The translations under genes and the position numbers were made by a program. This document shows, piece after piece, positions 39,281 through 44,969 of a stretch of DNA of 64,000 nt. Source of the DNA: Bacillota bacterium (GTDB lineage: Bacteria; Bacillota; Sulfobacillia; Fermentithermobacillales; Fermentithermobacillaceae); the NCBI GenBank assembly GCA_012841065.1, contig DUVI01000032.1, forward strand, positions 1 to 64,000, given 5' to 3'. The notes under the pieces were generated by a model. The model did no database searches and was not told the origin of the DNA. It worked only from the letters and a program-made list of their open reading frames with translations. Each line of letters starts with the position of its first letter. Position 1 is the first letter of the stretch.

Positions 39281-40696
39281 TTACTGCAAATATTGCCGGT
39301 AGAGTTCCTTTAGTTCGCCATCACCTTCTTTCCGGGCCAGCGCTTCGTTTTGTTTGCGCCAATACCTCTTAAACTGCCAGCTTCCTTTGAACGGACCATC
39401 ACCCACCAGCTTCAGGGTGTGTTGCACATACTCTGCATTAACTGCTTGTGCCTGACGGCAAAGCTCTACCCCGTCCACGCGCTTCGCCAACTCAAACAGC
39501 CGGTCCTGGTATTCCCTTAGTACAGGGCGAAGCTTAGCCACATTAATATCATAGTCCTTAAGCACAGCCCTGAACAGTAAGTTATTATACTTCCATCGCC
39601 GAATACCTTCTTTTTCGCCTGACATTTCACAGGATGATTGACCGGCACAAGACGTGGCCTTGCCGCCGGACCGGGTGATTTTGCCCTGGCCTGGTGCTTC
39701 GCTGCCGGGGGCTTCGCTGCCGGGTGCTTCGTTACCAGGTGATCCGCCGACGTATGATGCGCTGCCAGGCGATTCGTTGCCGTGTGATCCGCTGTAGGGC
39801 AAGACGTTGCGGTAGTCAAACTTGAGGGGCTTAAAGAGCTGGATCTCGGGACATGGGCCTTCTGTGTACCATATCAGCCCTGCATCGTAATCGTAAATCA
39901 TGGAAGCGGTCGCCTGCGAACTCACCAGCCCTCCCGCTACCATCCCGATGTTTCTCATCGATGCCACACAGTCTGTATGCCTGTCCCGCAACACTTCAAT
40001 TGCACCGGCCAGGTCGAGATTATTGCGTCGCATAAGCTCCCGCCCACGGCTTTCCCGGTGATACGCCCCGGCAAAGTAGGACACTATGGGATTTATGAAG
40101 TGCCGCTCGAAATTGGTTACCCTACCTTGCAGTTCCGGCGAAATCCCATCGAAATCATCTTTAAGCGACACTTTGTTGCTGATGTTGTAGTTGCTGACCA
40201 GCATTTTGTAAGCGTAATGGCGATCAACTGTCTCCAATACATATCCTTCGTTGGGATCCATGATTAGATAACTGTTGTGATAATAGAGGGGATTTTCATA
40301 GCCCCCATTGCCTCCCTGCCCAAAGCGTTGGGTGTTCTGCATGATGATCTCAAGCGCCTCCCGGGCAGTTGAGGCAAGCTCCAAAGCTGCCCTTAAGTGG
40401 TCCATGCCCAGAACTCCCATCTTATCTACCCGAGCCCTGTTAAACGTTGCCTGGTTGCCGATGCAAACTCCCCGGCTGTTGACACCCATTTCAGCGCCCC
40501 ACATCCATGCGGGCTTGGAGAGCCACACGTCATGCTTTACCTCATAGGAAGGCATTTCCACATATGTTTGGGGAGTACTCACAGAACCTGCGCGTACATA
40601 CAGCATGTACTGAGGTTCGTTTGGGTCGCGGTCGCTGTTCTTGGCAAAAAACCTGGTGGTACCGTCAGTTCTCCTCATATAGAAAGTGTCACACAT
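39281..40696 (-). CDS. C69 family dipeptidase-like Ntn hydrolase
   Basis: MCDTFYMRRTDGTTRFFAKNSDRDPNEPQ (Cys2 nucleophile, start 40696). Confidence 0.8.
   Translation of the reverse strand: MCDTFYMRRTDGTTRFFAKNSDRDPNEPQYMLYVRAGSVSTPQTYVEMPSYEVKHDVWLSKPAWMWGAEMGVNSRGVCIGNQATFNRARVDKMGVLGMDHLRAALELASTAREALEIIMQNTQRFGQGGNGGYENPLYYHNSYLIMDPNEGYVLETVDRHYAYKMLVSNYNISNKVSLKDDFDGISPELQGRVTNFERHFINPIVSYFAGAYHRESRGRELMRRNNLDLAGAIEVLRDRHTDCVASMRNIGMVAGGLVSSQATASMIYDYDAGLIWYTEGPCPEIQLFKPLKFDYRNVLPYSGSHGNESPGSASYVGGSPGNEAPGSEAPGSEAPGQGKITRSGGKATSCAGQSSCEMSGEKEGIRRWKYNNLLFRAVLKDYDINVAKLRPVLREYQDRLFELAKRVDGVELCRQAQAVNAEYVQHTLKLVGDGPFKGSWQFKRYWRKQNEALARKEGDGELKELYRQYLQ
39692..39782. repeat. 15-bp intragenic minisatellite encoding PGSEA-type repeats
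   Basis: GGTGCTTCGCTGCCG / GGGGCTTCGCTGCCG / GGTGCTTCGTTACCA; protein SPGNEAPGSEAPGSEAPGQ. Confidence 0.7.
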
Positions 40697-40939
40697 GCTC
40701 CTCCCCCGTTTTTTCTTGCAGGCCATGAGGGCGGCCCCCTGATTTCTCCCTGTCTATACGTTTATCGCAACCGGCGTCGTAAGATGCCGCGTACAAGACA
40801 CCATATACCACAAACCAATCGGAACTCCTCTTTGCCTGGTTCCGTTGGATGTGCAGGCAAGAACCTGTGCGTTTACCTTGCTGCAGAGATATCTTCTACT
40901 AGCGCCAACCTGCCTTAACGAACATTGGGGCCAGGAGAA

Positions 40940-42708: not shown

Positions 42709-43509
42709 TTACTCGATCCTTCGGCTATCAGTATTAGACCCCAAATGTCTGACGAGTTCTTCATACTCATCGCCTCCAGTAAGTTTTAGGAAAAGGTCCT
42801 CAAGGGACGCGTCTTCGCTTGCACCAGGAAGAACTCGTTGCCTGAGGTCATCGACGCTACCTTCAGCGATAAGGTGCCCCTTGTGAATGATCCCTACCCG
42901 GTCACACATCCCCTCAGCGATCTCCAAGATGTGGGTTGACATGAAAACAGCCCGTCCGCCCTGGGCATACTGCCTTAGCACTTCTTTGACCAGCCGGGCG
43001 CTTTTTGGATCCAGGCCTACAGTAGGCTCGTCTAAGAACAGCACTTTGGGTTCGTCCAGAAGCGCCGCTGAGATACATACCTTCTGCCGCATTCCATGCG
43101 AAAAGTTTGACAGAAGTTCATCTTGCCTGTCCCTGAGCTCAAAGATATAAAGAAGCTCATCCATGCGGTCAGCGGCTTTCTTACGGTCCATCTTCCGTAG
43201 GTCAGCCACGAACTGCAGAAGCTCCCTGGCGCTCAACGTATCGTAGACATTGGGAGTGTCGGGAACGTAACCTATCATTGCCTTGGCTTCCACTGGTTTT
43301 TCATGGATATCAACGCCACATATCTTTGCCTGCCCTGAGGTGGGCGACAAAAGCCCGCACAACATCTTTATGGTGGTGGTTTTGCCTGAACCGTTGGGCC
43401 CCAGGAACCCGAAAATCTCACCTGGACCCACTGATAACGTGAGGTCACTGACGGCAGTCAGTGCTCCGTACTTCTTGGTTAGTCCATCAGCCCGGATCAA
43501 ATCGTTCAT
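42709..43509 (-). CDS. ABC transporter ATP-binding protein
   Basis: GFLGPNGSGKTTTIKML; LSNFSHGMRQKVCISAALLDEPKVLFLDEPTVGLD. Confidence 0.93.
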   Translation of the reverse strand: MNDLIRADGLTKKYGALTAVSDLTLSVGPGEIFGFLGPNGSGKTTTIKMLCGLLSPTSGQAKICGVDIHEKPVEAKAMIGYVPDTPNVYDTLSARELLQFVADLRKMDRKKAADRMDELLYIFELRDRQDELLSNFSHGMRQKVCISAALLDEPKVLFLDEPTVGLDPKSARLVKEVLRQYAQGGRAVFMSTHILEIAEGMCDRVGIIHKGHLIAEGSVDDLRQRVLPGASEDASLEDLFLKLTGGDEYEELVRHLGSNTDSRRIE

Positions 43510-43690
43510 CTCCTCTCAGGTCTCGGTAGCGGTTCTCCGAAATGGCACCAGGCACGTGGCTCTGACACATTCTGCTGGATATATACGTCTTGGCAGGCAA
43601 TGAGGTAACACCGGTGCCAGGAACGATAAGGCATCAGAAGTGCTTGGCTGATGCGTCTGCGGCCACCGCGTCCCCAAGAAGCGGCTGAAT

Positions 43691-44189
43691 TGGTGCACCA
43701 TGTGCGCCATTCGGCACAACCATCCCACGAAAAAGAGCCAAAATGGTGCACCACGTGCGCCATTCGGCACAACCATCCCGCAAAAAAGGACAAAAATGGT
43801 GCACCAGAGGCACCATTCAGCGCCGCCATCCCATGAAAAAGAGCCAAAATGGTGCACCACGTGCGCCATTCGGCACAACCATCCTGCCAAAAAGGACAAA
43901 TATGGTGCACCACGTGCACCATTCGATGCCGCCATCCTGCAAAAAGGACAAAAATGGTGCACCAGAGGCACCATTCAGTGCCGCCATCCCACGAAAAAGA
44001 GCCAAAATGGTGCACCAGAGGCACCATTCAGCGCCGCCATCCTGCCAAAAAGGACAAATATGGTGCACCACGTGCACCATTGAGGGCCGTGAGCCCGAAG
44101 AGAGGAACCAGATTGGTGCATCTCGTGCGCCATTACACGCCTAGCCCAAGACAAAACCAGACCGAGTGGCGCATCATGTATGCCACTTG
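43691..44189. repeat. Ten-unit tandem array, 53-bp period, each unit with a 19-bp inverted repeat TGGYGCA-N5-TGCRCCA
   Basis: Unit starts 43691, 43744, 43797, 43850, 43903, 43955, 44008, 44061, 44114, 44167. Confidence 0.95.
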
Positions 44190-44243: not shown

Positions 44244-44969
44244 CTATTCCCCCAGGTAAGCCTGGCGCACCTGGTCATTGCCCAGCAAGTCGCGTGACTC
44301 ACCGTGGAGCACCACTTTACCGGTCTCAAGCACGTAAGCGCGTGAAGCGGTGTTGAGTGCCAAGTGAGCATTCTGCTCCACGAGCAATACGGTAGTGCCA
44401 TCACAGTTAATCTCCTCTATGATCCGGAAAACATCCTTCACGATCATGGGCGCAAGCCCCATGGAAGGCTCGTCCAAGAGCAACATCTTGGGCCTGGACA
44501 TAAGCGCACGCCCCATAGCAAGCATTTGCTGCTCTCCGCCGCTCAGAGTGCCTGCCAGCTGCTTTTCCCTCCCCTTTAGCTGCGGAAACAGCGAAAACAC
44601 CTTGTCCAAATCGTCGTGAATCTGCTGTCTGCCCTGCCCTCTCCCTGACCGGGAATATGCACCCAGTTCCAAGTTCTCCATAACGGTCATACGGGAAAAC
44701 ACCCTCCGCCCTTCGGGTACGTGGGAGATGCCCATTTTGACGATGTCTTCAGGATTGCAGCGGGTTATGTTCACGCCATCAAACGTAATCTCTCCCTCGG
44801 AAGGAGTCAGAAGCCCGGAGATAGTCTTGAGCGTTGTGGTCTTCCCGGCCCCATTAGCGCCGATCAGAGCCACGATCTCACCCTGACCGACGTCTATTGA
44901 CAGTCCCTTGAGCGCCCTTATCGTTCCATAGCAAGTTACAACATTTTTAAGCGACAACATTAGCTTCAT
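44244..44969 (-). CDS. livF: Branched-chain amino acid ABC transporter ATP-binding protein LivF
   Basis: ALIGANGAGKTTTLKTISGLL; LSGGEQQMLAMGRALMSRPKMLLLDEPSMGLAP. Confidence 0.93.
   Translation of the reverse strand: MKLMLSLKNVVTCYGTIRALKGLSIDVGQGEIVALIGANGAGKTTTLKTISGLLTPSEGEITFDGVNITRCNPEDIVKMGISHVPEGRRVFSRMTVMENLELGAYSRSGRGQGRQQIHDDLDKVFSLFPQLKGREKQLAGTLSGGEQQMLAMGRALMSRPKMLLLDEPSMGLAPMIVKDVFRIIEEINCDGTTVLLVEQNAHLALNTASRAYVLETGKVVLHGESRDLLGNDQVRQAYLGE

Follow-up and report, generated by a model that had tools for sequence, protein, structure and literature searches.

Several kinds of bacterial DNA element place protein-binding or palindromic sites in rows. The Lrp/AsnC (feast/famine) regulators bind as dimers to one face of the DNA at sites that are spaced by whole helical turns (two or three), with the DNA wrapping around the oligomer (PMC2995911). 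REP/BIME elements are intergenic, dispersed, clustered palindromic repeats lying close to 3' gene ends. In nucleosome-positioning sequences A/T alternates with G/C at the helical repeat, and a periodicity of A-tracts is known genome-wide in prokaryotes (PMC3940949). The phage 186 CI wheel and the ParR/parC and TubR/tubC segrosomes wrap DNA round an oligomer through a row of operators, and the mycobacterial MIRU-VNTR loci are intergenic tandem repeats, often of 53 bp. The array described here shares something with each of these: it is one of roughly ten to twenty arrays per genome, in five related uncultured bacteria, of protein-binding-type DNA sites set whole turns of the double helix apart and joined by otherwise unrelated DNA whose A/T content oscillates in step with them. 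It looks like a sequence-programmed chromosome-wrapping element, for which no protein has been identified.

The window analysed is a 64,000-nucleotide stretch (contig 14) of a 1.52-Mb, 88-contig, 81% complete MAG of Candidatus Fermentithermobacillaceae, here called G000. The original prediction was of a ten-unit, 53-bp array of inverted repeats (TGGYGCA-N5-TGCRCCA) between livF and an ABC exporter gene, and that observation is confirmed. The operators lie on the + strand at 43691-43709 (unit 1, TGGTGCA-CCATG-TGCGCCA), 43744-43762, 43797-43815, 43850-43868, 43903-43921 (unit 5, followed by the only 52-bp interval), 43955-43973, 44008-44026, 44061-44079, 44114-44132 and 44167-44185, giving eight intervals of 53 bp and one of 52 exactly as had been listed. 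The consensus is TGGTGCA-N5-TGCACCA, the core pattern gives 17 hits in the window against none in 100 shuffles, and Tandem Repeats Finder (TRF) also finds the array. Nine units pass a genome-specific profile; unit 10 (TGGCGCATCATGTATGCCA) is degenerate, with four mismatches and a C-A at one arm pair, and falls below the profile threshold, but is in register. The claim that units 8-10 have lost most of their linker did not hold: the spacing stays at 53 bp and the linker sequence is simply different. The whole array occupies 43689-44189, with linkers of about 30 bp. It lies 182 bp upstream of the start codon of an ABC transporter ATPase gene (42709-43509, minus strand; Pfam ABC_tran, 6e-31) and 112 bp, measured from unit 9, downstream of the stop codon of a livF-type branched-chain amino-acid ABC ATPase gene (44244-44969, minus strand; ABC_tran, 3e-33), which is the last gene of the liv operon, with BPD_transp_2 and Peripla_BP_6 proteins as neighbours, and reads towards the array. 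Elsewhere in the window, a predicted protein of 481 amino acids with internal tandem repeats (GSPGNEAPGSEAPGSEAPG), encoded at 39281-40726, has no Pfam match at 0.001.

Absence of any related locus, and an origin as an assembly artefact, had both been named in advance as grounds for abandoning the observation; neither applies. The same operator occurs in arrays or single units on contigs C1, C34, C35 (two), C51, C55, C72 and C76 of the same genome, the arrays all in 53-bp register, and related arrays occur in four other MAGs, many of them inside contigs. Profile scanning of the five species of the genus gives 84 units in G000, 163 in G004, 85 in G002, 89 in G001 and 18 in G003 (about 439 in all, in roughly 60 intergenic arrays). 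The operator differs between species, being a TGGTRCA mixture in G001 and TGGTACR-N5-TGTACCA in G003, as would be expected for a co-evolving protein. A tandem-pair pattern built on TGGTNCA finds nothing in nine genomes of sibling genera (it also misses G003, and so is specific rather than sensitive), and in the genomes screened from the rest of the class the operator appears only at background level. Arrays often lie at contig ends; short-read assemblies seem to break there, so that true array numbers and lengths are underestimated. Conservation of position, which had also been proposed as a check, was found within the genus: the window array is at the same place in G004 (13 units) and next to livF in G002 (5 units). 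Between genera a few neighbours are shared (DedA-like and MATE genes), but probably no more than by chance and, in the DedA case, in different intergenic gaps, and no conserved position is claimed.

Spacing is kept while sequence is not. Intervals are exactly 53 bp in 71 of 75 cases in G000, 133 of 143 in G004 and 64 of 69 in G002 (268 of 287 together), although the median identity of adjacent linkers is only 37-43%. G001 alternates 42/43 and 53 bp or runs at 43, including at loci whose orthologues in G002 and G004 are almost all 53, and most of the rarer spacings (64, 75, 95) are whole helical turns. When one spacing class is counted per array and 52-54 bp are excluded, 19 of 25 lie within 1.6 bp of a multiple of 10.55 bp (32.5% expected by chance, p about 1e-5). 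Contigs C43 of G001 and C4 of G004 were left out of that test because they are 99-100% identical at the protein level to the other species and are probably binning cross-contamination; neighbouring proteins with the array style of the other species link G001 C43 with G004 and G001 C71 with G004 C4, although contamination of these MAGs is reported as low. A few spacings (48, 50, 67, 78, 102) are out of phase, several of them at array edges or between degenerate units.

The linkers carry a second signal. In 180 deduplicated linkers, W (A/T) peaks at 21, 31, 41-42 and 52 bp of the unit, that is, at the dyad plus about 10.6k bp, with S in antiphase. The amplitude is 2.47 against 0.16 +/- 0.09 for shuffles, with a phase of -0.02 bp from the dyad, and is significant in each of the five species; the small set of 43-bp linkers also shows it, in slightly shifted phase. 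Taking one linker from each of 50 arrays gives 2.51 against 0.32 (largest shuffle 0.81), while the mean pairwise base identity of these linkers is 0.30, and windows in the same register three to four units outside the arrays give 0.11 against 0.17. Around positions 41-43 A and T are both common, so it is the W/S class and not the base that is kept. This is the pattern expected if DNA curves towards the face on which the operator dyads are contacted.

The original interpretation, selection on an inverted repeat serving as a phased dimeric-protein site or as chained RNA hairpins, is partly supported. Selection on a phased, dyad-symmetric DNA site is strongly supported by the multi-locus 53-bp spacing, the one-turn changes (43, 64 bp) in relatives, the W/S phasing of linkers and the syntenic positions. 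The RNA alternative, and the paired changes between units 8 and 10 (TGGT..ACCA to TGGC..GCCA) that were offered for it, are not supported. The paired changes in unit 10 exist, but over hundreds of units Watson-Crick pairing at the arm positions matches the value expected if left and right arms vary independently in the five species (with one exception, positions 6/14 in G002, among more than 50 tests), and the centre is actively asymmetric. Arms varying without compensation had been specified beforehand as a refuting outcome; that outcome is observed, but it refutes only the RNA reading, since independent half-sites are what a protein dimer would give.

Apart from one array overlapping a predicted ORF and one single site inside an ORF, the arrays are intergenic. 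They lie nearer to 3' gene ends (median 90 bp) than to 5' ends (253 bp), beside unrelated, mostly housekeeping-type genes (transporters, ligases, peptidases and tRNA synthetases, as judged from their sequences). It is puzzling, for a symmetric site, that the slight asymmetry of the operator centre (CCACG against CGTGG) follows transcription in 17 of 20 co-directional intergenic sites, the window array among them (p 0.003; some of these sites are orthologous, so that the effective number is smaller). A purely symmetric architectural site does not predict this. Orientation with the replication strand is weak (38 of 58, p 0.02), weaker than with transcription.

In our view, the best explanation, to which we would give a probability of about 0.68, is that the array is a row of two-half-site operators for a sequence-specific, symmetric (probably dimeric) DNA-binding protein that is encoded elsewhere in the genome. 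In this view the linkers are not read base by base, but their A/T-rich segments, at dyad + 10.6, 21, 32 and 42 bp, lie where the minor groove faces the same side as at the dyad, so that the DNA could curve towards the protein and wrap. The most likely role would be architectural: a wrapped or bridged nucleoprotein fibre at gene borders that organises the chromosome and/or insulates neighbouring transcription units. What the sequences themselves demonstrate is the operator family, its phasing, the bend code of the linkers, the independence of the half-sites, synteny and the shift of operator sequence between species; the protein, its dimerisation, the wrapping and the function are inferred. That the arrays are DNA-level, helically phased and under selection is well supported, that the DNA is bent or wrapped towards the protein is likely, and an architectural or insulating role is the best guess; no expression, binding or 3C data exist. 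The search for the protein gave nothing: Lrp/AsnC (PF01037) is absent from all 14 genomes of the family, while 11 of 14 control genomes give a hit, and the ParB-type complement does not differ from that of siblings lacking the motif; a phyletic-profile search was not made.

A bolder possibility, which the evidence allows but which we hold only tentatively, is a sequence-programmed bacterial chromatin fibre, in which a dedicated dimeric protein bound at whole-turn intervals, with linker DNA under selection only for bendability, wraps stretches of 150-1000 bp at gene borders. The family Fermentithermobacillaceae would then use such arrays repeatedly, with the operator and the number of turns (3, 4 or 5) changing between lineages. 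In a sibling genus, genome G005 has about eight array loci with a different, non-palindromic 17-bp motif (GACAAATCGTAACCGTC), all in one direction within an array, at a period of 31 bp (three turns); G011 has a variant at 32 bp, and G009 and G013 have arrays at 31 bp, the motif in this set of arrays being GACAAATCGTAACCGTC or GACAAAAGGTAACCGTC. No clear dyad or W phasing of linkers is seen there, and we do not decide here whether these arrays are the same kind of system. In G006, a single-contig genome of a third genus, about five degenerate units of period 31-32 bp (TATGCTGAATTTTCCGC..ATCCAGCA) lie in a mostly intergenic stretch (locus L232, 8094-8248), possibly a third array family; the same genome has a 7.9-kb array of 66-bp period with about 118 copies (locus L202, 35-7907), probably a CRISPR array, which was not examined. 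The arrays of the genus offer a clean natural case in which a bacterium appears to encode nucleosome-like bending in DNA independently of base identity, next to specific operators, at many conserved gene borders. They make it testable whether bacteria build site-specific wrapped chromatin or insulators, and provide a direct bait (a 23-bp operator and a 53-bp unit) for finding the protein. They also warn that palindromic arrays should be tested for covariation before being called RNA hairpins.

Of the rival explanations, a cluster of operators for an ordinary regulator of the adjacent genes survives best, although it is unlikely. The operators are dyad-symmetric and some are syntenic with the same genes across species, but the neighbours are unrelated, the arrays keep away from start codons and hug stop codons, and up to 20 units per array is far more than a regulator usually needs.

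Transcribed tandem RNA hairpins, serving as serial intrinsic terminators or 3'-UTR stabilisers behind the upstream gene, are about as unlikely. The proximity to 3' gene ends and the orientation with transcription speak for them, as do seven terminator-like sites in the window array against 1.2 expected, all on the transcribed strand, and a strand that folds better than shuffles (z -4.7); however, the last two follow from the palindromes themselves, which fold better than shuffles trivially. In addition to the lack of covariation, G-U (148) and C-A (133) are equally common in the direction of transcription from the upstream gene (p 0.40), the T content after the stem hardly differs between the two sides (3.50 against 3.14 of 8 nt) and T-runs (at least 5 of 8) are equally frequent (18.5% against 16.9%). 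The best Rfam match scores 15.3 bits against a 100-bit cut-off. Hairpins, moreover, do not need whole-turn spacing or W-phased linkers.

Chromosome-segregation or loading sites, a centromere-like set used as parS, SegB or MatP sites are, are more doubtful still. Genome-wide dispersed palindromes in several sites per genome, arrayed so that they would concentrate a partition protein, fit that idea, but sibling genera without this motif have the same one or two PF02195 (ParB) proteins, no paralogue being specific to genomes with the motif, and the motif is not parS-like; position relative to the origin was not measured in these MAGs, which are in 60-370 contigs. Selfish or neutral repeats (VNTR/MIRU-like tandem expansion or REP/BIME elements spread by a RAYT transposase) are the least likely, for although copy number varies between orthologous arrays (5, 9-10, 13 units) and some linkers are recent duplicates, the indels that neutral decay would accumulate as linkers saturate have not accumulated, only whole-turn changes are common, the Y1 transposase (PF01797) is present in G003 only of the five species, and W phasing at 30% base identity needs selection.

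Other identities were also set aside. A coding repeat was rejected because 53 is not a multiple of three, the overlapping ORFs being by-products. A CRISPR array was rejected because the repeats vary and the linkers are partly duplicated; the flanking genes in the window are transporters, others inspected look like housekeeping genes with no cas gene noticed, and no viral contig has the unit pair. A mobile-element origin found no support, with no match in plasmids, phages or viral contigs.

Literature searches for a described phased array or for MIRU gave nothing directly comparable, and in the literature available to us we could not match the arrays to a described system; what they do is extend phased operators and intergenic palindromic repeats. 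The Lrp/AsnC systems share palindromic sites phased by whole turns, but lack a PF01037 counterpart in this family, and the arrays here have spacings of four or five turns and occur ten to twenty times per genome rather than as one to three sites at a promoter. REP/BIME elements differ in that the present arrays have no fold-back covariation and no RAYT in most species, and show strict helical phasing and bend-coded linkers. With regard to nucleosome-positioning sequences and periodic A-tracts, the signal here is local, in register with a specific operator dyad and absent a few units outside the arrays. The 186 CI wheel and the ParR/parC and TubR/tubC segrosomes (a comparison not tested here) are single loci per replicon with different operators and spacing, and no partner gene was found for the present arrays. 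In MIRU-VNTR loci, finally, the units are near-identical direct repeats, whereas here only the operator is conserved and the linkers are largely unrelated.
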